From an uncultured Ignavibacteria bacterium (GTDB lineage Bacteria; Bacteroidota; Ignavibacteria; Ch128b): a stretch of DNA of 43,229 nucleotides. This document shows positions 114 through 19,548 of this stretch, piece after piece. The position numbers and the translations under genes are program-made. The stretch lies in assembly GCA_937944105.1 (NCBI GenBank), contig CALDZP010000012.1, forward strand, positions 1 through 43,229, given 5' to 3'. The notes below the pieces were generated by a model. The model saw nothing but the letters and a program-made list of their open reading frames with translations. It had not been told where the DNA came from and made no database searches. Numbering within the stretch: the stretch's first letter is position 1; each line of letters opens with the position of its first letter.

Positions 114-2010
<1,897 letters not shown>

Positions 2011-2019
2011 AAAAATAAA

Positions 2020-3531
2020 ATGAGAAAATTGATACTCATCATTGCTTTAACTTTGCTTCATTCTTCAATCTTTTCATTTCAAAATCAAGACAATAATTAT
2101 GAATTGAGATTGCGAAAAGCAATTGAACTTGTTTTTAATTTTCAATTCAAAGAAGCTGAGCAAAAATTGCTTGAACTCTCTGAAATTAATAAATCAGACT
2201 CAAGACCATTTTTATATCTCTCCAATATTTATGTCTGGAAATTTATTGGTGATCAACAAAAATCGGATTTCGAAAAGTTTGAGAACTTCAGTAAGCAGAC
2301 AATTCAAAGAGCTGAAAATATCTTAAAAACAAATCGTGATGATTTATGGTCATTTTATTCTCTATCAAGTATTTATGGTTATCGATCTCTGATGTACTTT
2401 ATGAATCGAGATTACCTGGATGGTTTATGGTCTGTAAAAAAATCCATTTCATGGACTGATGATCTAATTAAAAAGAATCCCAATTTCTACGATGGTTATT
2501 TATGGCGAGGAATTATTTATTTTTCTTTACATCAAGTTCCCTCAGCGTTTCGAAGTTTTTTATCAATCGTTGGACTTGAAGGTGATATTAAACAGGGCTT
2601 AAAAGATATACAATTAGTTTCGAAAAAAGGTGATTTGGCAAAAGTAGAAGCAAATTATTTCCTTTCTCAATTTTATTCTTCCTCTCTAAATGATAATCAG
2701 AAAGCTTATGAACTTTTAAGGGATTTGAGCTCAAAATATCCCGACAATGAATTATTTGTTTATTCGACTGCTGTTGAATTGATTAAATTACACAGAATAG
2801 ATGAAGCAAAAACTCATCTTTTTAGAATTGTCAAAAACAATTCTGTTGAAATTAAAGCTATCAAGGAATTGAGTTATTTTTTATTAGGCGATTGTTTCTT
2901 TTACCAGAATGAATTCAAAGATGCAATTACCTACTATGAAATTTTTTTGAATCAATATAAACAAAATCAATATAAACCAACCGCCTGTTTTCGGGCTGGA
3001 CTTTCGTTTTATTTTATTGATGATAATAAAAAAGCTACATATTATCTGGAGAAATGTACTTCAATTAATTCGAAAGTAAGCGAAGATAAATTTTATCAAC
3101 GATATGCAAAAAAGATTTTGAATTCTAATTTTGATCAAAAAATTTTAAAAATTTTCCTTGCCTGGAATTATCTTAGATCTGGCAAATTTGAATTAGCTAT
3201 AAGTCGTTTTGATGAAATTTTAAATTCTAATAAAAACAATGATTTGAAAATTGTTTTGAGGTATTTAATAGGGTTAAGTTATTATAAAATGAATGATACA
3301 ACAAACTCGAAAAAAAATTTCAATGAAGTTATAAGAATGAATTCAAAAGACGAATTGTGGGCAAAAGCTTTTGCATATTTATATCTGGCAAGATTAGAAT
3401 TCAGCTCAAGAAATTATCAGGCCTCAGATAACTATATAACTAAAATACTGGATATGGATAATTTCGATTTTGAGAATTCTGTAAAATCGCAGGCAAAAAA
3501 TCTTAGAGAAAGGATTAAAAATAATTTTTGA
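2020..3531 (+). CDS. Secreted TPR-repeat protein
   Basis: This 503-residue protein begins with a signal peptide (Lys-Leu charged start, hydrophobic core LILIIALTLL, ending near residue 20). It continues as an all-helical array with the A/Y/F spacing of tetratricopeptide repeats, clearest at about 260-345 (SYFLLGDCFFYQNEFKDAIT) and 380-490 (LAWNYLRSGKFELAISRFDE). It is likely a periplasmic or envelope scaffold that binds another protein. It follows pyrG by 9 bases, but a role in nucleotide metabolism does not follow from that. No enzymatic motif is visible, and a specific function cannot be assigned. Confidence 0.75.
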   Translation: MRKLILIIALTLLHSSIFSFQNQDNNYELRLRKAIELVFNFQFKEAEQKLLELSEINKSDSRPFLYLSNIYVWKFIGDQQKSDFEKFENFSKQTIQRAENILKTNRDDLWSFYSLSSIYGYRSLMYFMNRDYLDGLWSVKKSISWTDDLIKKNPNFYDGYLWRGIIYFSLHQVPSAFRSFLSIVGLEGDIKQGLKDIQLVSKKGDLAKVEANYFLSQFYSSSLNDNQKAYELLRDLSSKYPDNELFVYSTAVELIKLHRIDEAKTHLFRIVKNNSVEIKAIKELSYFLLGDCFFYQNEFKDAITYYEIFLNQYKQNQYKPTACFRAGLSFYFIDDNKKATYYLEKCTSINSKVSEDKFYQRYAKKILNSNFDQKILKIFLAWNYLRSGKFELAISRFDEILNSNKNNDLKIVLRYLIGLSYYKMNDTTNSKKNFNEVIRMNSKDELWAKAFAYLYLARLEFSSRNYQASDNYITKILDMDNFDFENSVKSQAKNLRERIKNNF

Positions 3532-3739
3532 ATTTATCTAAATTGTTTGATGGGTATTAATCAAATCATTTTTGGTTTAAATAATATCAACTGTCTTCAT
3601 TTTTTATTTTAGGAATTTAAAGGTTTTGGGAATAACGAAAAATTCTCATAGAAAAGACTTAATTGATAAAAAAAGATAAAAAAATCATAGAAAAATTGAT
3701 AAAATTTTAGTCTTTAACTAAATTGCACGCACAATTGAG
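3532..3739. other. Intergenic region upstream of purN
   Basis: This 208-base AT-rich stretch separates the TPR gene from the purN-rodA run, so the operon's promoter should lie here. I found no TAnnTTTG -7 element, no purine-riboswitch-like conserved core and no GC-rich terminator hairpin. Confidence 0.4.
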
Positions 3740-4369
3740 ATGAATTTTAAAAGCTTTAAGATCTGTGTATTTGCGTCTGGTCGTGGTTCGAATTTGCAGG
3801 CAATCTTGAATGCGATTGATAATGGAAAGCTTGATTGTGAAGTGACATTTGTGCTTAGTAATAATTCTGATTCTGGTGCTTTAGAAATTGCGAGAAGTAG
3901 AAACATTCCCGCTTTTCATCTTAGTGAAAAAAAATTTCATAAAAATAGTTTTGAAGAATCTTTAATGGATTTACTCGATAAATTTAATCCTGATTTAATT
4001 GTACTGGCGGGCTATATGAAGCTCATTCCAGAAAAGGTGATTAAAAAATTCAGAAATAGAATTATAAATATTCATCCAGCTTTGTTACCGAAGTATGGTG
4101 GAAAAGGGATGTATGGTATGAATGTTCATAAAGCAGTTTTTAATGCTAAAGAAAAAATTTCTGGTGTAACTATTCATCTTGTTAATGAAAAATATGATGA
4201 AGGAAAAATAATATTTCAAAAAGAAATCGATATCTCAAATTGTAAATCTCCCGAAGAAATCTCTGAAAAAATTCTGGAGATTGAACATCAAGTTTATCCT
4301 GATATTATTCAAAAAATCATCGAAGGTAAAATTTTATTGACAGAAGATGCTGGGCAATCTAAAAATTAA
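3740..4369 (+). CDS. purN: Phosphoribosylglycinamide formyltransferase
   Basis: Transfers a formyl group from 10-formyl-tetrahydrofolate to glycinamide ribonucleotide, step 3 of IMP synthesis. The N-terminal phosphate-binding motif FASGRGSNLQAI and the catalytic Asn-x-His in INIHPALLPKYGG are intact, as is the later Asp in VNEKYDEGKII. At 209 residues it has the usual length of the folate-dependent PurN class (PurT is ATP-dependent and unrelated). Its 3' end overlaps purH by 23 bases, which suggests translational coupling of the two purine genes. Confidence 0.96.
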   Translation: MNFKSFKICVFASGRGSNLQAILNAIDNGKLDCEVTFVLSNNSDSGALEIARSRNIPAFHLSEKKFHKNSFEESLMDLLDKFNPDLIVLAGYMKLIPEKVIKKFRNRIINIHPALLPKYGGKGMYGMNVHKAVFNAKEKISGVTIHLVNEKYDEGKIIFQKEIDISNCKSPEEISEKILEIEHQVYPDIIQKIIEGKILLTEDAGQSKN

Positions 4370-5885
4370 AAGAGCTTTAATAAGTGTTTATGATAAAACA
4401 GGTTTGCTTGAACTTGTGGAAGTTCTCAATCAATTTAATATTGAAATTTTTTCTACAGGTGGAACTTTTGATTTTTTAAGTCAAAAATTTAATACTATTA
4501 AAAACTTAAGTGAAATTACTGGAATTACATCACTTCTTGATGGTAGAGTAAAAACACTTCATCCACTTGTTCATTCTGCAATACTTGCTAAAAAAGATTC
4601 TGAAAAACACCTTGATGAACTAAAAGCAGCCGGGATTGAACCATTTGATCTTGTAATTATTAATTTCTACCCATTTGAAAATGTTATAAACAATCAAAAT
4701 TTGTCAGAAGATGAAATAATTGAATACATAGATATTGGTGGACCTACCCTTGTTCGTTCAGCTGCTAAAAATTTTAATTCGGTTGTAATCATTTCATCGA
4801 TTAATCAATATCCAGGATTAATTGAAGAATTAAAAAATAATTCTGGTAAGATAAATATCAATCTAAGGAGACAATTTGCGGCAGAAGCATTTCAAAATAT
4901 TGTTAAATATGATATTGCAATCAGTAATTATTTTAATCAAGATAAAGTAATGAATATCTCTCTAAATCTTGAAAAAGATTTACGATATGGTGAGAATCCT
5001 CATCAATCTGCAAAATTATATGGTGATTTCTTCAAATCCTTTCAACAATTACACGGTAAAGAACTTTCTTATAATAATATTCTTGATATTACTTCTGCTG
5101 CAGAATTAGTTTTTGAATTTGACAAAATTGCTTGTGCAATAGTTAAGCACAATTCACCATGTGGAGTTGCAATTGGCAATTCGATAAAAGAAGCTTATGA
5201 AAAAGCTTTAAAATGTGATCCTGTTTCTGCATTTGGTGGAATTGTTGCTTTTAATAAATCAGTTAATGCAGAAATAGCCAATCAGCTAAATAAAATTTTT
5301 CTCGAAGTTATAGTTGCCCCAGATTTTGATCAAGAAGCTTTAGAGATATTAAAAAGCAAGAAAGACAGGCGAATTATTAAAGTGAATGATAATTTCAAAT
5401 CAATAAAAAGTTTTTTGCACACATACGAATTAAAAAGTGTCCCAGGTGCAATTTTAATTCAATCCAAAGATGATTGTGTTTTAGTGAATGATTTTCTCGA
5501 GTTTGTAACAGTTTCTCAACCAGATCAAAGAGAGATAGATGATTTGAAATTTGCTTTTACTGTTTCAAAGTATGTGAAATCTAATGCAATTGTTTTTGCG
5601 AAAAATGGTATGACATTAGGCATTGGTGGTGGTCAAACCTCTAGAGTAGATTCAGTTAAAATTGCTTTAATGAAAGCAAAAGAATTTAATCACGATTTAG
5701 ATGATTCTGTTGTTGCTTCAGATGGATTTTTCCCTTTTTCTGATTCAATAGAAATTGCAGCATCAGCTGGTGCTAAAGCTTTCATTCAACCTGGTGGATC
5801 AATTCGTGATTCTGAGGTTATTCAATTTGCAAACGATAACAAATTAAAAATTGTATTAACAAGAATTAGACATTTTAAACATTAG
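4347..5885 (+). CDS. purH: Bifunctional AICAR transformylase / IMP cyclohydrolase
   Basis: Performs the final two steps of IMP synthesis. The N-terminal methylglyoxal-synthase-like cyclohydrolase domain (about 1-140) starts RALISVYDKTGLLELVEVL with the STGGT loop. The C-terminal transformylase domain contains LRYGENPHQSA, the catalytic Lys-His in AIVKHNSPCGVAIG, and DPVSAFGGIVAFN. The length of 512 residues is typical. The chosen ATG lies inside purN; no later start would preserve the domain. The gap to mreB is only 8 bases, which ties purine synthesis to the cell-shape genes. Confidence 0.97.
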   Translation: MLGNLKIKRALISVYDKTGLLELVEVLNQFNIEIFSTGGTFDFLSQKFNTIKNLSEITGITSLLDGRVKTLHPLVHSAILAKKDSEKHLDELKAAGIEPFDLVIINFYPFENVINNQNLSEDEIIEYIDIGGPTLVRSAAKNFNSVVIISSINQYPGLIEELKNNSGKININLRRQFAAEAFQNIVKYDIAISNYFNQDKVMNISLNLEKDLRYGENPHQSAKLYGDFFKSFQQLHGKELSYNNILDITSAAELVFEFDKIACAIVKHNSPCGVAIGNSIKEAYEKALKCDPVSAFGGIVAFNKSVNAEIANQLNKIFLEVIVAPDFDQEALEILKSKKDRRIIKVNDNFKSIKSFLHTYELKSVPGAILIQSKDDCVLVNDFLEFVTVSQPDQREIDDLKFAFTVSKYVKSNAIVFAKNGMTLGIGGGQTSRVDSVKIALMKAKEFNHDLDDSVVASDGFFPFSDSIEIAASAGAKAFIQPGGSIRDSEVIQFANDNKLKIVLTRIRHFKH

Positions 5886-5893
5886 GATTAAAT

Positions 5894-6919
5894 ATGGGAT
5901 TATTGAACATTTTTTCATCGGACATCGCAATTGATTTGGGCACAGCGAACACTCTAATTTATATTAGAGGAAAAGGAATTGTATTAAATGAGCCGTCAAT
6001 TGTTGCATTTGATAAAAATACAAAAAGAATAATTGCTGTTGGAAACCAAGCAAAAGAAATTCAGGGAAGAGAACACCGAGATATAAAAGTGAGTCGTCCC
6101 TTAAGAGATGGGGTTATTGCAGATTTTGAAATTGCAGAAGGTATGCTCAGAACTTTTATAAAAATGAGTAAAGGTGGTTTGCTCCCAAGTAGAAGAATTG
6201 TCATTGCTGTCCCCACAGGAATTACAGAAGTAGAAAAGCGAGCGGTTAGAGATTCAGCAGAACATGCTGGGGCAAAAGAAGTTCACTTAATTGCAGAGCC
6301 AATGGCTGCAGCGATTGGAATTGGTTGTGATGTTGAATCGCCAGTTGGTAATATGATCATAGATATTGGTGGCGGAACGACAGAAATTGCAGTGATTGCT
6401 TTATCTGGTATTGTGACTGATGAATCCATTCGAATTGCTGGTGATGAAATGAATAACGCAATTCAACAATTTTTTAAGAAAAACTACAATATTTTGATTG
6501 GTGAACGAACAGCAGAAATGATTAAAATTCAAGTTGGTTCTGCGATGCCATTAAAAGAAGAAATTACCATTCAGGTAAAAGGTAGAGATCTTGTTCAGGG
6601 AATCCCAACATCTGTAGATGTTAGTTCAGAAGAAATTAGAGAAGCATTGCGTGAGCCAGTTGATCAAATTATTGAAGCAATAAAAGTTACACTTGAAAAA
6701 ACACCACCAGAATTAAGTGCCGATATACTTGATAGAGGAATTTTATTAACAGGAGGTGGTGCTTTGCTTAAAGGCTTAGATGAGAGAATTAGATTGGAAA
6801 CGAATTTACCAGTTCATGTTGCCGAAGATCCACTAACAGCTGTGGTTCGTGGTGTTGGAAAAGTTCTCGAAAATTTTGATAAATATGAACGCGTCTTAAT
6901 TCGAAGTAGAAGATATTGA
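5894..6919 (+). CDS. mreB: Rod shape-determining actin homologue MreB
   Basis: MreB forms membrane-associated filaments that organise lateral-wall peptidoglycan synthesis. The protein has actin-fold nucleotide-binding motifs: IAIDLGTANTLIY near residue 11 (phosphate 1), MIIDIGGGTTEIAVI (phosphate 2) and GILLTGGGALLKGLD (adenosine motif). Its 341 residues match the family. An AGGA at about 6 bases upstream supports the ATG. It heads mreB-mreC-mreD-mrdA-rodA and follows purH by 8 bases. Confidence 0.98.
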   Translation: MGLLNIFSSDIAIDLGTANTLIYIRGKGIVLNEPSIVAFDKNTKRIIAVGNQAKEIQGREHRDIKVSRPLRDGVIADFEIAEGMLRTFIKMSKGGLLPSRRIVIAVPTGITEVEKRAVRDSAEHAGAKEVHLIAEPMAAAIGIGCDVESPVGNMIIDIGGGTTEIAVIALSGIVTDESIRIAGDEMNNAIQQFFKKNYNILIGERTAEMIKIQVGSAMPLKEEITIQVKGRDLVQGIPTSVDVSSEEIREALREPVDQIIEAIKVTLEKTPPELSADILDRGILLTGGGALLKGLDERIRLETNLPVHVAEDPLTAVVRGVGKVLENFDKYERVLIRSRRY

Positions 6920-6920
6920 G

Positions 6921-7742
6921 ATGATTTACTGGATTGTAAGATTTGTAAATAATTACAGGCAATATGTTATACTCACTATCTTAATTCTATTTTCACTCTT
7001 TCTGCTAAGTCTCAATCCATCAAAACAAATTACAACTCTTCGTAAAGGTTCTTTCTTAATTTATGCTCTCTTTAATTATATTAAAACACCGATTGATGAA
7101 TTCGTTTACTACAAGAAAGAGAATGAAATTTTAAGACGAGAAAACTCAGAATTGAGTCAAAAGCTATTTGAGCTTAAAGAATTTGAAGATGAAAAAGAAG
7201 AGCTGTATGATTTGCTTGAATTTAAAAAACAAAATCCCATTAATTATAAAACTGCAAAAATTATACTTAAATCAAAAGATGTTGTTGAAAATAAACTTAT
7301 TCTAAATAAAGGATTAAGAGATGGCATTAAATTAAATGCTATTGTTTTTAATTCTAAAGGTTTAATTGGTTATATATCTGATTTAACAGGTAATTATTCC
7401 GTTGTTCATACAATTGCAAATCATAACCTGAGAATTAGTGTAAAGAATGAGCGAACAAAAGCTTTAGGCATATTGAACTGGGATGGTGAAAAATTTAAAG
7501 TCTATAATGTTAGTAAATCGGCGGATGTAAAAGAAGGGGATATTTTTAGTACATCTGAGTACAGTTCTCTTTTTCCGCCAGATATTCCTGTTATTAAAGT
7601 AACATATGCATCAAAAGAATCAGAAACTCTTTTTTTTGACATTACCGGTAAAGCTCTTTCGGAGATGGAGGATATCAATTATTGTATGATCGTTGAACCT
7701 GATCAAAACACTTATAATTTAAGATTTATCAGAAAAAAATGA
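6921..7742 (+). CDS. mreC: Rod shape-determining protein MreC
   Basis: MreC is a bitopic inner-membrane protein whose periplasmic part activates PBP2-RodA. One transmembrane segment is visible at about residues 15-32 (YVILTILILFSLFLLSL). It is followed by a charged coiled coil at about 62-110 and then the beta-rich MreC domain (LKSKDVVENKLILNKGLRDG). The protein has 273 residues. Its start lies one base after the mreB stop and its stop overlaps mreD by four bases (ATGA). Confidence 0.95.
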   Translation: MIYWIVRFVNNYRQYVILTILILFSLFLLSLNPSKQITTLRKGSFLIYALFNYIKTPIDEFVYYKKENEILRRENSELSQKLFELKEFEDEKEELYDLLEFKKQNPINYKTAKIILKSKDVVENKLILNKGLRDGIKLNAIVFNSKGLIGYISDLTGNYSVVHTIANHNLRISVKNERTKALGILNWDGEKFKVYNVSKSADVKEGDIFSTSEYSSLFPPDIPVIKVTYASKESETLFFDITGKALSEMEDINYCMIVEPDQNTYNLRFIRKK

Positions 7743-8224
7743 TTAATAGATATTTTACTGCCGGTATACACTTGAGCTTGATTTTAATTTTGCAACTTAC
7801 ACTTGTAGAATTAATTTCTTTCCAGAACTTTAAGCCTGATTTAATAATGATTGGATTAATTTATTTTACATTAAGATTTGGACAAATTCCAGGAGTGATT
7901 GCTGCTTTTTTTGTGGGTTTGTTTTTCGATATTTTAAGTAATGGAATAATAGGTGCAAGCTCACTTTCTAAAGTTATTGCTTGTTTTATTGCCGGTTATT
8001 TTAGTGATCAAGATTCAGAAAGAGTGGAGATATCGATTAATTTTTTTGTGATTGTTTTTTTCATTACAGTAATTGAGAAAATAATTTATATTTTTGTTGC
8101 GGTTAATTTAGATTTCAAATATTTATTAATTTATCTTGTCAATTTTGGATTGATTCCTTCAGTTGTAACTTTGATATTCAGTCTTTTAATTTTATTATTC
8201 CCTAAAGAAAAAGAATTAAGATAG
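7739..8224 (+). CDS. mreD: Rod shape-determining protein MreD
   Basis: A 161-residue polytopic membrane protein with about five hydrophobic segments (for example LSLILILQLTLVELI, GVIAAFFVGLFFDIL and SVVTLIFSLLILLFP). MreD sequences are poorly conserved, so the call rests on size, topology and position between mreC (ATGA overlap) and mrdA (6-base gap). The motif FFDILSNGIIGAS matches the FFDxxxxxxxG pattern typical of MreD. Confidence 0.9.
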   Translation: MINRYFTAGIHLSLILILQLTLVELISFQNFKPDLIMIGLIYFTLRFGQIPGVIAAFFVGLFFDILSNGIIGASSLSKVIACFIAGYFSDQDSERVEISINFFVIVFFITVIEKIIYIFVAVNLDFKYLLIYLVNFGLIPSVVTLIFSLLILLFPKEKELR

Positions 8225-8230
8225 TAGAGA

Positions 8231-10012
8231 ATGAGAGAGCTTTCACCTCAAATTAGGACATCGATTATAAATATTTTGACAATTGTGATTTTCTTTTCAT
8301 TGGGGTTCAGGCTTTATCAGATACAAATAGTTGAAACAGAAAAATTTCAAAAAACATCTGAAAAAAATGCAATAAAAGAAAAGGTTATCGAACCATACCG
8401 TGGAATTTTTTATGACCGTAATTGGAAAGTTTTAGTTGACAATCAACCGAGTTTTACTCTTCGAATAACGCCATATTATTTTGACACTTCGTTAATTCCA
8501 ATTCTTGAAAAATATTTTAATTTAAAACATGGTTACATCAAATACATTCTAAGAGTTAATAAAAGTTTTTCTCCTTTTATTCCGATAAGAATTCAACGTG
8601 GGCTTAGCTTTGAACAAATTAGCTGGTTAGAAGAAAATAAAGAATACTTAACAGGTGTTGATTATTCAATAGATATGCAGAGAGCTTATCCTGCGGGAAT
8701 CAGAGGTTCTCATTTATTCGGATATTGCAAAGAAATTTCTCGAAAAGAATTAGAAGAGAAAAAAGAATTTTATATAATGGGTGATTTTGTTGGACATAGT
8801 GGATTAGAAAAATATTATGAAGATTATCTCAGGGGTAGAAAGGGTAAACAGTTTATTTATGTTGATTCAAAAGGTAGAGAAATTAATCCGGTTAATGGAG
8901 GACAAAACGATATCAAACCAGTTTCTGGATATAATGCTCAATTGACCATTGATGGAGATTTACAAAAATTAGCGGAGGAATTATTAGAAGGGAAAAGTGG
9001 AGCAATTGTGGCTATTGATCCGGATAATGGTGAGATTTTAGCATTGGTAAGTAAACCAGATTTTGATTTATCTCATTTTGCAAGCATGACTCCTGCTTCA
9101 ATCTGGCGTGAATTGAATTCGGACAAAAGAGTTCCCTTATTTAATCGTGCAACAATGTCAATTTATCCACCAGGTTCTTGCTTTAAACCAGTTAATGCAG
9201 TTGCAGCATTGAATGAAAATGTGATAGATGAAAAATTTACTTATGGATGTGGTGGTGGTTTTTCTTTTGGTAATCATTTTTATAAATGTATGGGTACTCA
9301 CGGTCCATTGAATGTTGTACATGCAATTGAAAAATCTTGCAATACTTTTTTCTTTAATTTAATTCTTAAGAATGGTTTTGAAAGATGGACAAAATATGGC
9401 AGCCTTTTCGGTTTTGGTAAAAAAACTGGAATAGATATTTATGAAGAGACTTCCGGTATTTTACCTTCAATTGAATATTACAATAAAATTTATGGAATTA
9501 ATCGCTGGACTAAAGGTTATATCGTTAGTCTAGGAGTTGGACAGGGTGAACTTGGGGTTACACCACTTCAAATGGCAGTTTATGTTGCAACAATTGCAAA
9601 TGGTGGAACATGGTACAGACCTCATGCTGTAAGAAAACTATTTAATCCTGAGGCTAATCCACCAGAAATTGTTATACCAATAGAAGGGAAAAAACTTCCT
9701 GTAAAAGATGAAGCAATTGAACTTGTTAGAAAAGGAATGTATCTGGTTGTAAATGGCGCTGGTACAGCAACTCATGTTCGAATACCAGGTATTGAAGTTG
9801 CTGGTAAAACCGGTACTGCACAAAATCCACATGGTAAAGATCATGCCTGGTTTATTGGATTTGCACCTTTTGAAAATCCTAGAATTGCTATTGCTGTTAT
9901 AGTTGAAAATGCAGGATTTGGTGGTACCGTTGCTGCACCAATTGCAAAACAATTAATCGAGTTCTATTTGAAGGATAGTAAAAAGAATGATAAAATTCTT
10001 GCGCAAAGGTAA
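8231..10012 (+). CDS. mrdA: Penicillin-binding protein 2 (elongasome transpeptidase)
   Basis: Class B PBP that cross-links peptidoglycan during cell elongation. An N-terminal transmembrane anchor lies at about residues 11-27. The pedestal/dimerisation domain follows, with [12 protein letters not shown] and the [11 protein letters not shown] region. The transpeptidase domain holds the active-site Ser316-x-x-Lys319 in PPGSCFKP, Ser369-Cys-Asn371 and Lys526-Thr-Gly. A Cys follows the nucleophile where Thr is more usual. The 593 residues fit PBP2 rather than the FtsI subfamily, and so does the position directly before rodA. Confidence 0.97.
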
Positions 10013-11252
10013 GTTTAAATCTGAAAGCGTTGAATATAAGTTAACCGATAAAGTAGACTTTTATTTACTTATATCTTCGTTGATAATTATTATTTTTGGT
10101 TTACTTTCCATTTATAGTTCGACTTTTAATATTCCATCTTTACATACAAATTTCTATAAACAACTGTTTTTTGCAATCATTGGAGTATTTGCTGGAATAT
10201 TTGTTTATAATCTTTCTTTGAAGGTATTCAATTTGGTAGCCGTTCCGTTTTACATTTTATCACTAATACTTTTAATATTTGTTTTATTCCTAGGAAAAAA
10301 AGTTTCTGGAAATCAAGCATGGCTTAATCTTGGTGATTTTTCTCTTCAACCATCAGAAATTTCGAAGTTTGCTGTAATTTTAATGCTTGCTCATGTTTTT
10401 GCTAAGAAAAATTTTAATGTTAATACACTCAAAGGTTTTTTACTTATTTCAGCTATTGTTTTTGTACCAGCATTATTAATAATACTTCAGAAAGATATTG
10501 GAACGGCAATTGTCTTTTTTTCCATTTTGATATTTGGATTATTCTGGAATGGATTATCTGGTTTTTCTGTTTTTGTTTTGGTAAGTCCTGTAATTGTCGC
10601 ATTTTCATCTTTATTAGGTTTTATTCCACTAATTATATCATTAATAGGTGTCATATTAATTCTTTTTTATTTTAAGAGGGAGATGTTTCTATCAATTGGG
10701 ATTCTATCTTTAAATTTAGCAGCTGCTGTTCTTGTAGAGCTTTCCTTTCTTATTCTATCACCTCATCAGATTAATCGAATAAAGAATTTTCTCGACCCAA
10801 ATTTTGATCCTCTTGGTAGCGGTTATAATGCTTTACAGGCAAAAGTTGCTATGGGTTCTGGAGGACTATTTGGCAAAGGATTTCTCGCCGGTAGTCAAAC
10901 TCAATTAAAGTTTATTCCCGCTCAATGGACGGATTTTGTTTTTTGTGTTGTTGGAGAAGAATTTGGTTTTATAGGTTCAATCTTTATTCTTGTTTTATAT
11001 TTTATTGTAATTACAAGAATGTTACACATAGCAAAAACCAGTGATTCTGTCTTTAGAAGTAGTGTAATGATTATGTCTGTTTCTGTTTTGTTGACACACA
11101 TTTTTATTAATATCGGGATGACGATTGGTTTAGTCCCGGTTATTGGCATACCTTTACCATTGATGAGTTATGGTGGTAGCGCACTTGTTACAAATATGAT
11201 GATGATAGCCACGGCTTTAAATTTTTATCGACATAGAACTTCGTACGCTTGA
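9987..11252 (+). CDS. rodA: SEDS peptidoglycan glycosyltransferase RodA
   Basis: Polymerises glycan strands from lipid II together with PBP2. The 421-residue polytopic protein has about ten membrane segments. SEDS signatures are present: [19 protein letters not shown], the conserved Asp-containing loop [18 protein letters not shown], and the C-terminal [16 protein letters not shown]. It overlaps the end of mrdA by 26 bases. Its stop codon overlaps the putative -33 element of the next operon, so it ends this transcription unit. Confidence 0.97.
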
Positions 11253-11280
11253 ACCATTTAATTCGAATTATTTAATTTTG
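11249..11280 (+). promoter_or_regulatory. Bacteroidota-type promoter of the TonB-receptor operon
   Basis: TTG at 11249-11251 is separated by 21 bases from TAATTTTG at 11273-11280. This fits the Bacteroidota primary-sigma consensus TTG-N17-23-TAnnTTTG. A start site near 11287 would leave a leader of about 30 bases with the GTGAGG ribosome site before ATG 11318. Confidence 0.6.
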
Positions 11281-11317
11281 AAAAAATATAATTAATAAAC
11301 TTCAAAGTGAGGTTGAG

Positions 11318-14161
11318 ATGATCAAAAAAATAATTTTTCCCTTCCTGACTTTAGCCATAATGGGACAATTTCTTTTTGCTGGTAATACTGGAAAAATTGC
11401 TGGTAAAGTAATTGACAAAGATACAAAAGATCCCATCCCTTTCGCTAATGTCATTGTCGAAGGTACACAACTTGGTGCTGCAACTAATCTCAATGGTGAA
11501 TTTGTAATTTTAAATGTACCACCTGGAGTTTATACTGTAACGGCATCTGTTGTAGGATATCAGAAAAAATCAATTACCGAAGTTAGAGTCAATGTTGATT
11601 TTACTACAAGACTTGAATTTCAATTGTCTCAAGGTTCAATTGACTTACCACCTGTTGTTGTTCAAGGTGAACGTAATCCTTTAATAAGACAGGACTTAAC
11701 AAATCCTGTTGCCTCAATAACAAGTGATAAAATTGATGAGTTACCAGTTGATCAAATTGCAGATGTCATTAAACTTCAAGCTGGAGTAGTAGTTGGTAAT
11801 GATGGTGATATTCATATTCGTGGTGGCTATGGAAATGAAATTGCCTATACTTTAAATGGAATTACTCTAAATGACCCTTATGGAAATAGAAGGTCGGTTG
11901 GACTTGCAACTAATGCCGTTCAAGAAGTTTCTGTTTCAAGTGGAACATTCAGTGCAGAATATGGAAATGCTTTAAGTGGGGTCGTTAATTATGTAACTAA
12001 AGAAGGTCCATCGAAATATACTGGTAGTTTTCGTACTTATAGTGGTGATTATTTTTCAAATAGAAGAGATTTGTTCGAAAATATAGAAGACATAGATCCA
12101 TTAAATAGATTCAGGACGGAATTTACATTTGGTGGTCCTGTACCATTTTTGCTTTCCAGATTCGTTAATTTCTTTATCTCGTCAGTTTATGAAGATTTTA
12201 AAGGTTCTTTATATGGAAAAAGATTGTTCAGAACTACAGATTCATATTTAGAAAGAAATAATTTTAGATCCGGTGATCCAAGAAGTGGTAGATCAACTGA
12301 TCCATACTTTTTCAATCCATATAGCAAAGATTCATCTGGTTTACCGACTGGAGATGGCAAATGGATACCAATGAATTGGTCTCGTTCTTTTAATTTTCAG
12401 GGCAATTTAATTATTAAACCGCTACCCACTATAAAGTTCAAATATGAATATGTTTTTGAAAAGGGAACTTCACAAGATTTTGAGAGATCTTACAAATTTA
12501 ATCCCGATGGTAGGCCAACAAATTATTCAAATGGATACATTCATGCTTTTGATTGGACTCACACTGTTTCGAATAATTTATTTTACACATTGAAGTTATC
12601 TTACGGAACAAATTATTATAAGTCTTATCTTTATGAAAGTCCATTTGATGAAAGATATCTCCCATCACTCTACCTTAGAACATTAGGTAATACTACATTT
12701 TTAACGGGTGGAACAAACAACGAGAGATTTTTTAGAAAAACTCAAACTCTCGGAATAAAAGGCGATTTGGTTGCACAACTATTTGATGTTCATGAAATAA
12801 AAGCTGGTTTCGAAATAAGAAAACATAGATTGAATGTAGAAAGTTATACTGTTCAGGTTGGTTACATTAATCAACAAGGATTATTCACAACACTAACTCC
12901 ATCAACTTTGTTGTATGATTCTGTTCAACTTATAAGAAGGATTCCTTCTGACACTTCTCTTTACACAAGTTACGAGAGATTGCCAGTTCAAGCGGCTGCA
13001 TATATCCAAGATAAAATAGAATTAGCCTCATCAATGATTTTGAATGTTGGAGTAAGATATGAATTTTTCAATCCAGCAGCACAATACAATCCATTTGTAA
13101 GTAAAGACTTAAGTGAATTGAAAGCAGGTTCAATTACAAAAAATGCGACTGATGCAAAACCAAAACATCGATTAAGTCCAAGAATTAGTGTCTCATACCC
13201 AATAACAGATCGCGGAGTAATAAGATTTTCTTATGGACATTTTTACCAGATCCCTTCACTGGCAAGTTTGTATCGAAATCCATTTTATTATGTTGCTAAT
13301 TTTGGTGAAAATCCTACTTTTGGAAATCCAAATGTGGAACCTCAAAAAAGTGTGCAATATGAACTTGGTTTGCAACAGTTATTGCTTGATGACTTAAAAC
13401 TTGAAGTTACTGGATTTTATAAAGATGTGAGCAACTACATTTATACTCAACAGATTTATACAAATGAAGGACGAGCATTTTATTTATTAACAAATCTTGC
13501 TTATTCAAGTAGTAAAGGTATAACTATTTCTTTATTGAAACGAAGGTCTCCACAAGATTTCTTTTCTGCAACAATTGATTACACATTTTCACTTGCTGAA
13601 GGCAATAGGACCTATCCTTCCGATGAAATTTTCTTTAGTGAGAAAAGTGGAAAGCAAAGTGAAACATATCTTGTCCCATTTAGCTTTGATAGAAGTCATG
13701 TAATCAATACAACTTTAACATTTACTCAACCAAATAATTGGATTGCTTCATTGATAGGATATTTTCAAACCGGTACACCATATACACCGGTTTTTCCTTC
13801 AAACATTGTTGATATTACTTTTGAACAAAATTCTGCAAGGCAGCCAATTCAATGGAATGTAGATTTTAAGTTTGAAAAATTCTTTATGATAGGTAATCTT
13901 AAGCTTTCTATATTTACTCAAATTGAAAATCTATTTGATACTCAAAATGAGCTATATGTTTATGCTTCCAGTGGTCGCGCATTAAGTGCAATTGAAGAAA
14001 AAGATATAAATATTGTATTCTCTGATTTAATTAAAAGAATTAGGCGTGGTGATCCAGGTTTAATTCCACTCAAAGAAATTGAACGATATTATTCTCTCAG
14101 ACCTGAAAGAGTAAATAGACCGAGAGAAGTTCGTTTAGGTTTTCAATTAATTTTTAACTGA
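11318..14161 (+). CDS. TonB-dependent outer-membrane receptor with carboxypeptidase-regulatory-like domain
   Basis: An outer-membrane gated channel for energised uptake. A signal peptide (about 1-21, ending FLFAG) is followed by a CarboxypepD-regulatory-like beta-sandwich (about 24-110, GKIAGKVIDKDTKDPIPFAN). The plug domain (about 125-230) contains IHIRGGYGNEIAYTLNGI and YGNALSGVVNYVTKEG. A long 22-strand-type barrel runs to a C-terminal Phe-Asn. The 947 residues are normal for the SusC-like/CarboxypepD class. GTGAGG lies 8 bases before the ATG. The next gene starts 21 bases downstream. The substrate is unknown, and no SusD lipoprotein gene is present, so a polysaccharide-uptake role is not supported. 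Confidence 0.9.
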   Translation: MIKKIIFPFLTLAIMGQFLFAGNTGKIAGKVIDKDTKDPIPFANVIVEGTQLGAATNLNGEFVILNVPPGVYTVTASVVGYQKKSITEVRVNVDFTTRLEFQLSQGSIDLPPVVVQGERNPLIRQDLTNPVASITSDKIDELPVDQIADVIKLQAGVVVGNDGDIHIRGGYGNEIAYTLNGITLNDPYGNRRSVGLATNAVQEVSVSSGTFSAEYGNALSGVVNYVTKEGPSKYTGSFRTYSGDYFSNRRDLFENIEDIDPLNRFRTEFTFGGPVPFLLSRFVNFFISSVYEDFKGSLYGKRLFRTTDSYLERNNFRSGDPRSGRSTDPYFFNPYSKDSSGLPTGDGKWIPMNWSRSFNFQGNLIIKPLPTIKFKYEYVFEKGTSQDFERSYKFNPDGRPTNYSNGYIHAFDWTHTVSNNLFYTLKLSYGTNYYKSYLYESPFDERYLPSLYLRTLGNTTFLTGGTNNERFFRKTQTLGIKGDLVAQLFDVHEIKAGFEIRKHRLNVESYTVQVGYINQQGLFTTLTPSTLLYDSVQLIRRIPSDTSLYTSYERLPVQAAAYIQDKIELASSMILNVGVRYEFFNPAAQYNPFVSKDLSELKAGSITKNATDAKPKHRLSPRISVSYPITDRGVIRFSYGHFYQIPSLASLYRNPFYYVANFGENPTFGNPNVEPQKSVQYELGLQQLLLDDLKLEVTGFYKDVSNYIYTQQIYTNEGRAFYLLTNLAYSSSKGITISLLKRRSPQDFFSATIDYTFSLAEGNRTYPSDEIFFSEKSGKQSETYLVPFSFDRSHVINTTLTFTQPNNWIASLIGYFQTGTPYTPVFPSNIVDITFEQNSARQPIQWNVDFKFEKFFMIGNLKLSIFTQIENLFDTQNELYVYASSGRALSAIEEKDINIVFSDLIKRIRRGDPGLIPLKEIERYYSLRPERVNRPREVRLGFQLIFN

Positions 14162-14182
14162 ATTTCTTGAGGAGAAGAAATA

Positions 14183-17100
14183 ATGAAAAGTAAAATTAAA
14201 ATCTCATTTATTTTGTTAATTTTTATATCATTTAATCTTTTGTCGCAGAAAAAAGATCAGTATGGTAATTACATACTTAAAGAACTTACGGAAAAACAAG
14301 CTCTTGAATTATTTGGTAAACCTGGTGAACGATTGGCTAAATCTCTTGGTAATCCTAAATTAATTAAAGAAAGTATTATTCAAGGGAATAAAGTAAAAAC
14401 AGTTTTATTTAATTATGGTTCAATTTGTGCACCAAATTATTTAGGAAATATTGCTGATCTTGTGTGGAATGGACTCGGTTATGGATTTGAGTTTGGGCCA
14501 CTGGCTGCTGCCGAGGTTGTTAATGATAGAGGTGATACATTACACATTGTAGATGATTCATTTATCAGAACATTCCAAGGTGATTATGATCCATCAGGTA
14601 CGATAAAATGGGGTTGGTTACCAAAAGATGGATATGTTGATCCAAATCAAAATGAAATAGCAAGATTAAATTCACCTGATAATAACGGAGATGGAAAACC
14701 TGATAGCTGGCCAGAAAGTTGGTATAATCCAGGAGCCGGGAAATATTTATGGCCTGCATTTCTTGGTGATCAGGCAACAGCACCTGACGAAGAAGTTTAT
14801 TTTGTTATTGATGATTACACAAATGCAGAATTTCCCTACTATCCATTTCCAGATGATTCATCCAAACGAGGTCTTGGCTTAGATATGGAAGTCAGAGTGT
14901 TACAATTCAATAATCCATTAGCAGAGGATATAGTTTTTTTGGTTTATCAAACGACTAATGCAAGTCCTAAAACTTTACCAAGAGTTTACTTTGGAATGCA
15001 TGGTGATCCACATGTAGGGGGACCAAACAACTATTCAGATGATAGAGCATTCTTTATTCCACCTTTAGGACCATTGGCTGATCCTTACCCACAACGTGCA
15101 AGAAGCATGGTTTATGCATGGGATGATGATATGAAAGGGGATGGCGGAAAATGGTGTGGTTATTTTGGTTGGAAATTTTTAGAAAGCCCGAGCCAACATT
15201 CAGATTTAAAAGATAATGATGATGATGGAATAATTGATGAATCTCCATTTAATGACGCTGGATTTTACATTGATGGGATTCAATATCCTTTGAATTATGG
15301 GATTTCAGATGTTGCAAAATATACTGAAATTTATGGCGCACCTAAACCAAGATGGTCTGGTGATGAAGATGGTGACTGGGATCCTGCAATTCATGATATC
15401 GGTATTGATGGGATTGGACCAGATTCTCCAAACTATCCAGGACCTGATTATGGTGAAGGTGATGGTAAACCAACTCAGGCATGGTATATTGATCAAAATG
15501 AAAATGGAAAATATGATGTTGGTGAACCAATTTCTGAAATTCGTTTACCAGGTTATAAATGGGCTGGTTCTGAACCAAATTTTGGATTACGAGATATTTC
15601 TGAATCAGATCAGCTTGGGTTAACGAGTTTTCATGCTGCCGTCTATACTAATTCTCTTCCAAATGTTCCAATGAATGATGAGTTAATGTGGGAGTGGTTA
15701 TCAAGTGAGACAATAGATCCAAATCAGGAATTACTTAATCAACCGGGAGATAATGTTTTTAATTTCGGAACAGGACCTTTCAAACTTGAGCCTGGTGAAA
15801 CACAGAGATTTTCTATGTGTATTTTGTTCGGTGAAAATTTAAACGATCTGGTATTAAATGCAGAAATTTCAACCAGGATTCTTGAAGCGGATTATAGATT
15901 TGCGCAACCTCCCGCAAAACCAATTGTGACTGCTGTTCCTGGTGATGGAAGAGTAACTCTTTATTGGGATACAAGAGCAGAAAATTCTGTTGATCCACTT
16001 ACAGGATTAAAAGATTTTCAAGGGTATAAAATTTATCGAAGTCAAGATCCAAAATTTTCTGATGTATTTAAAATTACTGATGGCAATGGTGTTCCATATA
16101 TTGGTGTTCCCTTGTTTGATCCCAATACAGGTAAATATGCTCAATTTGATTTGATTGATTCATTAAAAGGTTTTCATCCAGTGGAATATATTGGCAGAGG
16201 TGTCAAATATTGGGTAGGTAATAATACAGGACTTGTTCACGAATATGTGGACTCAACTGTTAAAAATGGAATCACATATTATTATGCTGTGGTTTCTTAC
16301 GATGGAGGATCATTAGTGCCAGGTAAGGAATTACCGCCATCGGAGTCTCCAATGGTAATTATTCAGGATCCAATTACTGGTGAATTAAAGTTCGATGTTA
16401 ATACAGTAATGGTTACACCTGGACCACGTGCAAAAGGAACATTAACTAATTTAAACGATAATCTTTCAATTCAACATGAAAGTGGAATTGCCACTGGTAA
16501 AGTATATGTTAAAACTTATGATAGTAAAGCTGTAAAAGATCAGAATGAATATAGGATTGAGTTTGTAACCAACAACTCCTTTAATTTAATAAATGAAACT
16601 GGAGTAACTGACAGGATAATTTCAAAAGACACAGTTTTAGTAAATCTCACGAATCAAAATATCATTTTAAGTAGTGTAGTGGTAAAAGATGAAGCTGGCA
16701 ATATAATTCCTTCTAATAAATATTTTGTTGCAGCAACTACAGGTAAAATTCGTGGTGCAAATCATGGTGATTTGCCTTCAGGTAATATTTATTATGTGAC
16801 ATATAAATATTATCCAGTTTATCAAAGCTCTTACATTAATGGTGAAGATGCAAATCCGTCTTTTGATGGAATGCGAGTTTTTCTATTTAATGATACTTTA
16901 GGAATTGATAGAAAAAATTCTGGCTGGCATCCCGAGAAAAAAACTAATTTGAAGGATACAATTCTCTGGGTACCAAGAACAGTTTCACCAGCTAATCCAC
17001 ATTTGCCTACTGATTTAGATTTTAAACTTGTATTTACAAGTATGGATACAACTGCTTCTGGTAAATACGTTTCACCTGGAGATACAGTAATTAATCAATC

Positions 17101-17740
17101 GAATCAAAAAATTGTTTGTCCGTTCAAAATCACAATTATTACGCCTGATACAATGCTTGGTCGAAAAGCAGATTATCTTATTTTTGAAGGTATAGCGGCA
17201 ACTCGAGGCAATGGTAGATGGGATCCAGGTGAAGATATAATTTTGTTCCCGCGAGTTAGAGATAGGTTAAGAACTTCTTACCAGATAACATTTAGTTTAC
17301 CATCAGGTCAATTTATTCCACCTCAAGGAGATGTTTATTTTTTAAGAACAACTAAACCATTTAAAGCTGGTGAAAAATATTCATTTAGAACTATTGGTGA
17401 AAAATATGATAAACAAATTGCCAGAAATCAGCTTGATAATATTTATGTAGTTCCAAATCCTTATGTAGCATTTTCGGATGCGGAGCAACCGGCTCGTCAA
17501 CCAAATAGAAGAGGTGAAAAAGTTCTTCAATTTAGAAATCTACCAAAAGAATGTACAATAAGAATTTATACAATAGCCGGTGAACTGGTTCAAACAATTT
17601 ATAAAAATGACGATGGAAGTATAGTTAACTGGGATTTATTAAGTTATGAAGGTCAAAGAATTGCTTATGGTGTTTATATTTATCATGTTGATGCACCAGG
17701 TATTGGCGAAAAGATTGGTCGATTTGCAGTAATTAAATAA
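14183..17740 (+). CDS. Large secreted surface protein with Fn3 and T9SS-type sorting domain
   Basis: This 1185-residue protein of unknown function starts with a signal peptide (about 1-21, IKISFILLIFISFNLLSQ). The N-terminal half is rich in Trp, Gly and Asp and holds several Ca-binding-loop-like segments: DNNGDGKPD, DNDDDGIIDESPF, DEDGDWDP and DQNENGKYDVGEP, with NGRWDPGEDI later. A fibronectin type III-like region lies at about 573-715 (VTLYWDTRAENS...YYYAVVSYDGG). The C-terminus (about 1090-1185) has VPNPYVAF, RIYTIAGELVQTI and GVYIYHV, which resembles FlgD-Ig/T9SS type A sorting domains. AGGAG lies 8 bases before the ATG. Its position between a TonB receptor and PorV suggests surface display, possibly acting with the receptor. 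Confidence 0.8.
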   Translation: MKSKIKISFILLIFISFNLLSQKKDQYGNYILKELTEKQALELFGKPGERLAKSLGNPKLIKESIIQGNKVKTVLFNYGSICAPNYLGNIADLVWNGLGYGFEFGPLAAAEVVNDRGDTLHIVDDSFIRTFQGDYDPSGTIKWGWLPKDGYVDPNQNEIARLNSPDNNGDGKPDSWPESWYNPGAGKYLWPAFLGDQATAPDEEVYFVIDDYTNAEFPYYPFPDDSSKRGLGLDMEVRVLQFNNPLAEDIVFLVYQTTNASPKTLPRVYFGMHGDPHVGGPNNYSDDRAFFIPPLGPLADPYPQRARSMVYAWDDDMKGDGGKWCGYFGWKFLESPSQHSDLKDNDDDGIIDESPFNDAGFYIDGIQYPLNYGISDVAKYTEIYGAPKPRWSGDEDGDWDPAIHDIGIDGIGPDSPNYPGPDYGEGDGKPTQAWYIDQNENGKYDVGEPISEIRLPGYKWAGSEPNFGLRDISESDQLGLTSFHAAVYTNSLPNVPMNDELMWEWLSSETIDPNQELLNQPGDNVFNFGTGPFKLEPGETQRFSMCILFGENLNDLVLNAEISTRILEADYRFAQPPAKPIVTAVPGDGRVTLYWDTRAENSVDPLTGLKDFQGYKIYRSQDPKFSDVFKITDGNGVPYIGVPLFDPNTGKYAQFDLIDSLKGFHPVEYIGRGVKYWVGNNTGLVHEYVDSTVKNGITYYYAVVSYDGGSLVPGKELPPSESPMVIIQDPITGELKFDVNTVMVTPGPRAKGTLTNLNDNLSIQHESGIATGKVYVKTYDSKAVKDQNEYRIEFVTNNSFNLINETGVTDRIISKDTVLVNLTNQNIILSSVVVKDEAGNIIPSNKYFVAATTGKIRGANHGDLPSGNIYYVTYKYYPVYQSSYINGEDANPSFDGMRVFLFNDTLGIDRKNSGWHPEKKTNLKDTILWVPRTVSPANPHLPTDLDFKLVFTSMDTTASGKYVSPGDTVINQSNQKIVCPFKITIITPDTMLGRKADYLIFEGIAATRGNGRWDPGEDIILFPRVRDRLRTSYQITFSLPSGQFIPPQGDVYFLRTTKPFKAGEKYSFRTIGEKYDKQIARNQLDNIYVVPNPYVAFSDAEQPARQPNRRGEKVLQFRNLPKECTIRIYTIAGELVQTIYKNDDGSIVNWDLLSYEGQRIAYGVYIYHVDAPGIGEKIGRFAVIK

Positions 17741-17757
17741 AATTTATGGAGTTTGAA

Positions 17758-18786
17758 ATGAGAAAAATAATTTTCATCATAGTTTTTATTGGAATTTTAA
17801 ATTCACTCTCATTTGCTCAGCTTGAAAGAAGTACTTCTAAAGTTGGAACAACTGCAGCGACATTTCTCAAAATTAATGCAGGTTCTCGAGCAATTGCTAT
17901 GGCAGGTGCATTTGCTGCAATGGAAAACGATATTTATTCAATTTATTATAACCCAGCAGGAATTTCCAGGATTACCGGTACTGGTGCTTCTGCTTTTAAT
18001 CATGCTAACTGGTTAGCAGATATGTCATACGATTTTGCAGCCCTTGCATTAAATCTTGGTGATATTGGAAGTATAGCTCTGAGTTTAATATCCTTTAGTG
18101 TACCAGAAGAAAAAGTCAGAACTTTTGATAATCCTGAAGGTGATGGTAGGTATTGGGATGCCAGTTCACTGGCATTGGGATTGTCTTATGCCAGAAATTT
18201 GACTGATAATTTCTCAATTGGGTTCAATTTCAAATATATTCGTGATCAGGTCTGGGATATGAGTGCAAGCTCAATTGCAATTGATGCGGGAACAATGTAT
18301 ACAACGCCTTTCAATGGATTAAGAGTCGGTGCAAGTATTTCTAACTTTGGTACAAAGATGAAGCTTGAAGGTAGAAACACTTATTTTAATGTAGATCCAA
18401 ATAATAATCCTAACTCAGGCCCAAATAATATTCCTGCCGAATATAGACTTTCATATTATGATATACCTCTTTCATTTCGTGTTGGTCTTGCTATGGAAGT
18501 TGTTAAATCGGAGTTGCTTGTTGTAACTACTTCACTTGATGCTGTCCATCCAAATGATAATACGGAGTATTTAAATTTTGGATTGGAATTGAATTTCAAT
18601 AATTACTTTTTTGTCAGAGGTGGATACAAATCGTTATTCTTAAGAGATAGTGAACAAAGCTTTACATTTGGATTCGGTTTGAATTATCCAATAGTTAATG
18701 AAATAGCTCTATCATTTAACTATGGATTTGCTGATTATGGAAGGTTAAAAAATGTTCAATTTTTTGATTTAGTTGTGAGATTTTAA
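17758..18786 (+). CDS. PorV/PorQ-family outer-membrane protein
   Basis: A predicted FadL-like beta-barrel of the PorV/PorQ family; PorV carries T9SS substrates to their attachment complex at the cell surface. After a signal peptide ending SLSFAQ, the family signature appears (FLKINAGSRAIAMAGAFAA and DIYSIYYNPAGISRI), then alternating beta strands to a terminal Phe (LVVRF). I chose the ATG at 17758 rather than 17746 because GGAG at 17748-17751 then sits 6 bases upstream, and the protein starts MRKIIF as a normal signal peptide. The neighbouring sorting-domain protein is a plausible client. Ignavibacteria often hold several paralogues, so this may not be the sole PorV. Confidence 0.88.
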   Translation: MRKIIFIIVFIGILNSLSFAQLERSTSKVGTTAATFLKINAGSRAIAMAGAFAAMENDIYSIYYNPAGISRITGTGASAFNHANWLADMSYDFAALALNLGDIGSIALSLISFSVPEEKVRTFDNPEGDGRYWDASSLALGLSYARNLTDNFSIGFNFKYIRDQVWDMSASSIAIDAGTMYTTPFNGLRVGASISNFGTKMKLEGRNTYFNVDPNNNPNSGPNNIPAEYRLSYYDIPLSFRVGLAMEVVKSELLVVTTSLDAVHPNDNTEYLNFGLELNFNNYFFVRGGYKSLFLRDSEQSFTFGFGLNYPIVNEIALSFNYGFADYGRLKNVQFFDLVVRF

Positions 18787-19548
18787 ATGAGATCTCAGGC
18801 GGTCGTTTCTAAGAAAAATAAATTAGATTCGACCGCCAATTTTATTTTAAAGGTCAATAAAATCTTAATAAATACCTTTGGTAAACCATCAAGAAACTTA
18901 AATTCAAGTCCAGTAGATGTATTAATTGCAACAATCCTTTCGCAGAATACAAACGATATTAACTCTCATAAAGCATTTTTAAGACTCAAAAGGAAGTTCC
19001 CTAAATATGAAGATATTCTAAATGCTGATCTTAGAACTATTGAAAACACTATTAAGATTGCTGGATTGGCAAAACAGAAATCTCAAACCATAAAAAATAC
19101 ACTTCGAGAGATTTACAATAAAATGGGCTCTCTTTCTTTTGATTTTTTAAATAGTCTTGATATAGATGATGCTCTAAATTATCTCTCATCATTCAAAGGA
19201 GTTGGATTAAAAACAGCTGCTTGTGTTTTACTTTTTGGGTTGCATAAAAATATTTGTCCAGTTGATACTCACATCCATAGAATATTAAATAGAGTTGGAA
19301 TTGTTAATACAAAGGATAGAAATAAAACCTTTAAATTAATTAATGAATCCTTACATGATGGAATTGCACATGAGTTTCATACTAATTTAATTAAACTTGG
19401 AAGAACAATATGTTTAAGTCAAAATCCTGTGTGTTATGAATGCCCTTTGAAAAATATTTGCAAGTTCGAAAAGAAAAATTTTATTAAGAAAGGCTATAAA
19501 AAGAATCAAAGTAAGAAATCAGATTTTTTATTATTGGATTCAGTTTAA
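18787..19548 (+). CDS. nth: Endonuclease III-like DNA glycosylase/AP lyase
   Basis: Base-excision repair enzyme that removes oxidised pyrimidines. The helix-hairpin-helix is FKGVGLKTAACVLLFG with catalytic Lys142, followed by the essential Asp160 in PVDTHIHRILNRVGI. The C-terminal [4Fe-4S] ligands are Cys209-x6-Cys216-x2-Cys219-x5-Cys225. At 253 residues it is slightly longer than E. coli Nth because of N- and C-terminal basic tails. The ATG directly follows the porV stop with no gap or own ribosome site, so translation is probably coupled to the surface operon. Confidence 0.94.
   Translation: MRSQAVVSKKNKLDSTANFILKVNKILINTFGKPSRNLNSSPVDVLIATILSQNTNDINSHKAFLRLKRKFPKYEDILNADLRTIENTIKIAGLAKQKSQTIKNTLREIYNKMGSLSFDFLNSLDIDDALNYLSSFKGVGLKTAACVLLFGLHKNICPVDTHIHRILNRVGIVNTKDRNKTFKLINESLHDGIAHEFHTNLIKLGRTICLSQNPVCYECPLKNICKFEKKNFIKKGYKKNQSKKSDFLLLDSV

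Follow-up and report, generated by a model that had tools for sequence, protein, structure and literature searches.

A conserved gene triplet of Ignavibacteria encodes a TonB-dependent receptor, a T9SS-type cargo and a PorV/PorQ-type barrel, a candidate surface complex

The stretch of DNA analyzed here (the window) comprises 43,229 nt of contig CALDZP010000012.1 from an uncultured Ignavibacteria bacterium (Ch128b; assembly GCA_937944105.1). Three consecutive genes on its plus strand encode a TonB-dependent receptor, a large protein with a C-terminus resembling those of type IX secretion system (T9SS) substrates, hereafter the cargo, and an outer-membrane barrel of the PorV/PorQ family, separated by 21 bp (receptor–cargo) and 5 bp (cargo–PorV). 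The initial annotation had described this receptor, cargo and PorV gene set, which we confirm (Table 1), and had proposed a dedicated surface system in which the cargo plays a SusD-like part. We consider it rather probable that the three genes encode one surface complex, made of a T9SS-exported partner with its own carrier; this estimate covers that core and not the ligand. The unit is best read as a SusCD- or BtuBG-like receptor with a T9SS-exported partner held by its own PorV/PorQ-type barrel. The dedicated system draws support from the conservation and multiple copies of the unit, the paralogous status of its PorV, the correlated distances of the three genes and the confinement of the cargo to genomes with the SprA translocon, but family, fold and anchoring of the cargo all differ from those of SusD, and "SusD-like" can hold for its role alone. 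The separate elements are known; new is the combination of a TonB receptor, a type A-like cargo and a private PorV-type carrier, and no description of the triplet was found in published open-licence papers.

Conservation and common history of the three genes

A single unselected search of public genomes with the cargo, made with the neighbors unknown beforehand, yielded 50 loci, in records labelled Ignavibacteria, Melioribacteraceae, Marinimicrobia, Bacteroidetes, Bacteroidota and Chlorobiaceae. In 36 of the 50 loci the cargo is immediately preceded by the receptor and followed by PorV, with all three genes running in one direction; a contig end truncates one or both flanks in 13, and in one (L077) the receptor ends ~390 bp ahead of the called cargo start. 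With picked regions added, 101 distinct cargo open reading frames (ORFs) divide into 84 full triplets, 16 cases cut by contig ends and the L077 case; among the Marinimicrobia loci, seven in number, four are full triplets and three are cut by contig ends. The picked regions (L089–L148) were chosen from match lists of related genomes, some after PorV coordinates were visible, and 8 of these 60 have no strong cargo ORF and were left out of the counts. The triplet order is kept in all 20 regions that were chosen, blind to their neighbors, from other classes of the phylum, two of them with wide receptor–cargo gaps (1.7 kb in L193, 0.5 kb in L185). Median gaps over 79 triplets are 14 and 13 bp, and cargo homologues are present in 58 of 61 genomes. 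Counted across genomes, the unit is conserved and multi-copy, and its genes stay linked in relatives.

Further triplets of the window's genome are found on contigs C45, C76 and C88; C68 has another, whose receptor is cut off where the contig begins, and C61 a divergent copy. A cargo-like gene and a PorV gene stand at the edge of contig C59. Altogether, 21 PorV-family matches and 20 plug domains are found in this genome. In another region (L133:3644-18753) two complete triplets, of subtypes 1 and 2, follow each other on one strand ~100 bp apart; this tandem pair suggests that triplets multiply by tandem duplication.

The three genes share their history. Pairwise distances over 79 triplets (87 reduced to 82 by length and to 79 by removal of duplicates, the window's own triplet not included) correlate at 0.948 between cargo and receptor, 0.887 between cargo and PorV and 0.900 between receptor and PorV. 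Thirteen genomes with multiple triplets gave 283 between-genome comparisons; the best match was shared by all three genes in 191 of these, and by cargo and PorV in 213, against ~90 expected by chance for the latter. A PorV tree of 48 rows, to which the window's PorV was added by hand (in this tree alone), groups the triplet PorVs together with moderate support (87/87). Cargo subtypes 1 and 2 come out as clades with good support, subtypes 3 and 4 are joined and subtype 6 is split in two, with several deep forks unresolved; the general PorV and the PorQ sit on long branches of uncertain placement.

Gene linkage by itself proves no contact, and the three genes might form one expression unit rather than one complex, with the cargo a free-standing adhesin or scaffold that has its own PorV-type carrier and the receptor importing alone. 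Fibronectin-like regions in the cargo and adhesion proteins among its Foldseek matches would suit such a protein, as would the description of SprF-linked type B cargos as adhesins in PMC12618676. We regard this as unlikely: the receptor is upstream wherever that side is visible, in 84 of 84 full triplets and in the case with the 390 bp gap, and it is the receptor distances that follow those of the cargo best of all. The cargo is likely a surface partner of the receptor.

Export of the cargo and its linked barrel

Profile searches assign the cargo to no named Pfam or NCBIfam family. It begins with a probable Sec signal peptide, and it lacks the surface-lipoprotein character of SusD partners: a lipobox-like pattern is found in 1 of 79 cargo homologues and not in the cargo of the window. 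T9SS type A domains end in two hydrophobic residues followed by Lys, and so do the last residues of all 79 cargos. The T9SS profile TIGR04183 is matched at E 0.01 or better by 8 of 38 cargo homologues, and the C-terminus weakly matches solved PorZ in a profile search (E 0.032). The medium-confidence structural model gives the C-terminal domain seven strands, the number described for type A domains in PMC12618676. The label "T9SS-type", given to the cargo at the outset, is thus borne out by a type A-like C-terminus with seven predicted strands but not by the TIGR04183 score, which stays under the cut-off (see below).

The distribution of the cargo points in the same direction. Of the 296 genomes sampled from the phylum, 109 contain the cargo, and all 109 carry SprA, which is also present in 119 of the 187 genomes without the cargo; the genome of the window encodes SprA as well. 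Confinement to SprA-positive genomes fits a T9SS substrate. As judged from its sequence and distribution, the cargo is very probably exported by the T9SS.

The third gene passes the PorV/PorQ family profile NF033709 with 202.6 bits (cut-off 90) but reaches neither the PorV equivalog NF033710 (78.8 bits vs 250) nor the PorQ equivalog NF033711 (80.2 bits vs 220). It is not the general PorV of its genome, since PorU with a linked PorV, and also PorQ, are encoded elsewhere: on contig C69, PorU (1003 bits, cut-off 420) is followed by PorV (255 bits, cut-off 250), and a further gene of the genome scores 243.7 bits as PorQ (cut-off 220). The copy in the window is therefore a paralogue and not the sole general PorV. 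The same PorU and general PorV stand in a row with an inactivated M6-like T9SS-dependent protease (L094:5092-13542). Scores under both equivalog cut-offs and a weak FadL/TodX match (E 0.0014) could also be expected of a FadL-type channel that works with the receptor and passes small or hydrophobic molecules. That is quite improbable for a barrel that lies more than twofold above the PorV/PorQ family cut-off, whose family profile matches PorV as solved in the SprA complex (5.2e-24), and whose gene invariably comes after that of a protein with a T9SS-like C-terminus. The barrel is probably a dedicated carrier of the linked cargo.

The receptor was initially annotated as a CarboxypepD-type TonB receptor, and rightly so: an N-terminal CarboxypepD_reg-like domain (PF13715), a Plug (PF07715) and a TonB barrel (PF00593, 93.9 bits) all exceed Pfam cut-offs, and the barrel is assigned to a 22-strand-type family. 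The SusC/RagA subfamily cut-off is not reached (TIGR04056, 65.5 bits vs 368.25). The receptor also matches PF25183 (69.8 bits, cut-off 30), which we take to be an Oar-like family. This match and the precedent of Oar itself (PMC6434023) could speak for a role of the receptor in export. Such a role is very doubtful, given that the ordinary TonB barrel profile gives the receptor a higher score, and that a second exporter is not needed because SprA is present in all cargo-bearing genomes and a PorV-type carrier adjoins each cargo.

The predicted fold of the cargo is beta-rich (AlphaFold2, predicted local distance difference test score (pLDDT) 73.7 for the full protein and 75.6 for residues 46-741 modelled alone). 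The latter model matches a galactose-mutarotase-like supersandwich at Z 19.9 (root-mean-square deviation 2.9 over 257 residues) and the full-length model matches this fold at Z 19.8; both values are from VIA, which re-aligns folds ranked by Foldseek only, so that folds outside this ranking are not excluded. Nearly all VIA rows listed for the domain are of the supersandwich fold, among them enzymes of glycoside hydrolase (GH) families GH15, GH94, GH116 and GH65. Their catalytic helical domain is missing from the cargo model, and a glycoside hydrolase was rejected as the identity of the cargo for want of any Pfam GH match and with hardly any helix in the model. Foldseek matches of the full model include fibronectin, adhesion proteins and PorZ, and the fibronectin-like region weakly matches a Fn3-like chain by profile (E 0.6). 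Ca-loop-like motifs average 1.87 per cargo (n = 79) against 0.04 in shuffled sequences and number three in the cargo of the window; the supersandwich domain is probably stabilized by calcium.

Table 1. Coordinates of the triplet, its predicted domains and its immediate neighbors in the window
Feature	Position	Strand	Details
RodA/FtsW-family gene (rodA)	9987..11252	+	PF01098; 65 bp upstream of receptor
TonB-dependent receptor gene	11318..14161	+	947 aa
Cargo gene	14183..17740	+	1185 aa
Probable Sec signal peptide of cargo	14183..14245	+	residues 1-21, next residue Gln, no lipobox; read by eye
Predicted galactose-mutarotase-like supersandwich with acidic insertion	14318..15895	+	residues ~46-571, end approximate; AlphaFold2, VIA
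Ca-loop-like motif	14678..14704	+	cargo residues 166-174
Ca-loop-like motif	15212..15238	+	cargo residues 344-352
Ca-loop-like motif	15491..15517	+	cargo residues 437-445
Fibronectin-III-like region	15917..16363	+	cargo residues ~579-727, approximate boundaries; Foldseek fibronectin matches
T9SS type A-like C-terminal domain	17435..17737	+	cargo residues 1085-1185, seven predicted strands; AlphaFold2; TIGR04183 17.1 bits
PorV/PorQ-family outer-membrane barrel gene	17746..18786	+	346 aa; NF033709 202.6 bits
HhH-GPD base-excision gene (endonuclease III-like)	18787..19548	+	PF00730; starts directly after PorV

Relation to known systems and the proposed mechanism

The absence of a SusD partner, stated in the initial annotation, extends beyond the locus: the SusD families PF07980 and PF14322 have no match in the whole 99% complete genome. 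The cargo was also rejected as a SusD homologue in its own right, since it has no Pfam match and a beta-rich predicted fold in a genome without SusD. Nevertheless, the triplet resembles SusCD/RagAB systems in its receptor with a CarboxypepD domain, the co-encoded large surface partner, the multiple copies and the proximity of some copies to GH genes; it differs from them in its partner, whose family and predicted fold are not those of SusD, which is no lipoprotein and which comes with a PorV-type barrel of its own. In the vitamin B12 importer BtuB–BtuG, the surface partner of the TonB receptor is likewise beta-rich and not a SusD, BtuG forming a lid on BtuB (PMC10404256). BtuG, however, is a lipoprotein propeller, whereas the triplet cargo has a C-terminus like those of T9SS substrates and a carrier gene linked to it, and its role as a lid is conjectural. 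Type B cargos with PorP/SprF likewise have a cognate FadL-family shuttle gene directly downstream and many pairs per genome (PMC12618676, PMC9143113), but the triplet has a type A-like C-terminal domain, a barrel of the PorV/PorQ family and a TonB receptor in the unit. In PorQ–PorZ, part of the T9SS attachment complex, the retained C-terminal domain of a surface protein binds a PorV/PorQ-type barrel, and cognate PorV-like barrels are suggested to shield such domains from cleavage (both in PMC10202324). PorZ and PorQ are single general components, in contrast to the triplets with one pair per receptor, where the cargo would retain its domain.

We propose that the cargo would be exported first by Sec and then by the general SprA translocon, with the type A-like C-terminal domain directing the second step. 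The linked PorV/PorQ-type barrel would receive its one cargo and anchor it at the surface, in a manner comparable to PorQ–PorZ and to SprF with type B cargos. There the N-terminal supersandwich could meet the receptor and capture a ligand in a lid-like fashion for import by the TonB-dependent receptor; a glycan or oligosaccharide is the likeliest candidate for this ligand.

Several observations weigh against this reading. The C-terminal domain of the cargo scores 17.1 bits on TIGR04183, below the cut-off of 23 bits, and the statistic that associates the cargo with SprA ignores the relatedness of genomes. The supersandwich also occurs in the periplasmic domain of YidC, the top Foldseek match of the domain model; since YidC, which is not known to act on sugars, ranks first, the fold alone cannot settle the function of the cargo. 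On contig C23 of the same genome (L089:8111-11912), receptor and PorV are adjacent with no cargo between them, and this pair is either a broken-up triplet or a unit of its own; a shorter cargo-like ORF of 657 aa lies ~3.8 kb upstream of it. Over the 296 genomes, 55 have both cargo and SusD, 54 the cargo only, 100 SusD only and 87 neither (p 0.63), and this independence led us to reject a simple exclusion between SusD and the triplet. Only the 228 SprA-positive genomes (55/54/96/23, in the same order) display a negative association of SusD and cargo (p 1.6e-6), although both tests ignore relatedness. Finally, subtype 2, to which the window's triplet belongs, has no sugar-related neighbor (0/17) and is flanked by rodA and a DNA-repair gene; the glycan reading is made at the level of the family and is therefore weakest for the window's own copy.

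Recurrence several times per genome and in two phyla suggests an undescribed way to build nutrient-capture complexes at the surface. More tentatively, the triplets may represent a second capture architecture of the Fibrobacteres–Chlorobi–Bacteroidetes (FCB) group, parallel to SusCD, in which a TonB receptor works with a T9SS-exported supersandwich subunit that remains attached to its own barrel by an uncleaved C-terminal domain, PorV-type proteins serving as dedicated anchors, one per receptor. If the surface complex is real, the T9SS would assemble receptor complexes, beyond secreting enzymes and adhesins. Type A-like cargos could have private PorV-type carriers, as opposed to the statement in PMC12618676 that one general PorV serves all type A domains. 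A role would also be found for a family of ~1200 residues without a Pfam or NCBIfam name that occurs in over a third of the genomes sampled (109 of 296), and an uptake route for a class where SusD is scarce (13 of 73 genomes, compared with 43 of 73 for the cargo).

Neighboring genes and transcription

The neighbor set comprises 79 proteins encoded next to triplets, co-directional with them and no more than 300 bp away; the 25 commonest families of this set were listed. Among the families listed, 23 neighbors have a T9SS tail, 12 are HhH-GPD, 7 are of the LacI-type sugar-binding family, and GH16, malectin and CBM20 are found in 6 each. None of these families reaches two, among the families listed, in 79 control ORFs drawn from 147 random ORFs of 6 related genomes, both sets being phylogenetically non-independent. 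Representatives of neighbor clusters include GH13, GH3, GH16, GH94, LacI, CBM9 and an FGGY sugar kinase; GH16 is tied to subtype 6 and GH3 mostly so, LacI and GH13 belong mostly to subtype 3, and GH94 is found near four triplets (L116, L122, L136 and L142). At least 18 of the 79 triplets have a sugar-related neighbor, a count that omits the GH94 and CBM9 clusters and CBM20, which falls in a mixed single-linkage cluster. A glycan or oligosaccharide can be put forward as the ligand of the triplet complex with some hesitation.

A mixed cluster lies beside 28 of the 79 triplets and contains other T9SS-tailed proteins, sometimes with CBM20. The longest T9SS-tailed neighbor (L051:2778-6590) has FG-GAP repeats and DUF5689. 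A 625-residue protein with a PPIC-type rotamase domain (cluster of L141:9990-11864) is encoded near 10 triplets of four subtypes and may be a periplasmic chaperone for them. The HhH-GPD gene is conserved beside 13 triplets, all of the window's subtype 2.

The suggestion that the three genes share one promoter finds no support, as promoter-like sites in the region are at chance level (43 found vs 48.4 expected). The transcript may be longer than three genes, because the co-directional run spans 385-19548, rodA ends 65 bp upstream of the receptor and the HhH-GPD gene abuts PorV. Farther along the window, at 32809-35049, a second likely T9SS substrate has an M23 peptidase domain, and its T9SS sorting tail scores above the cut-off.

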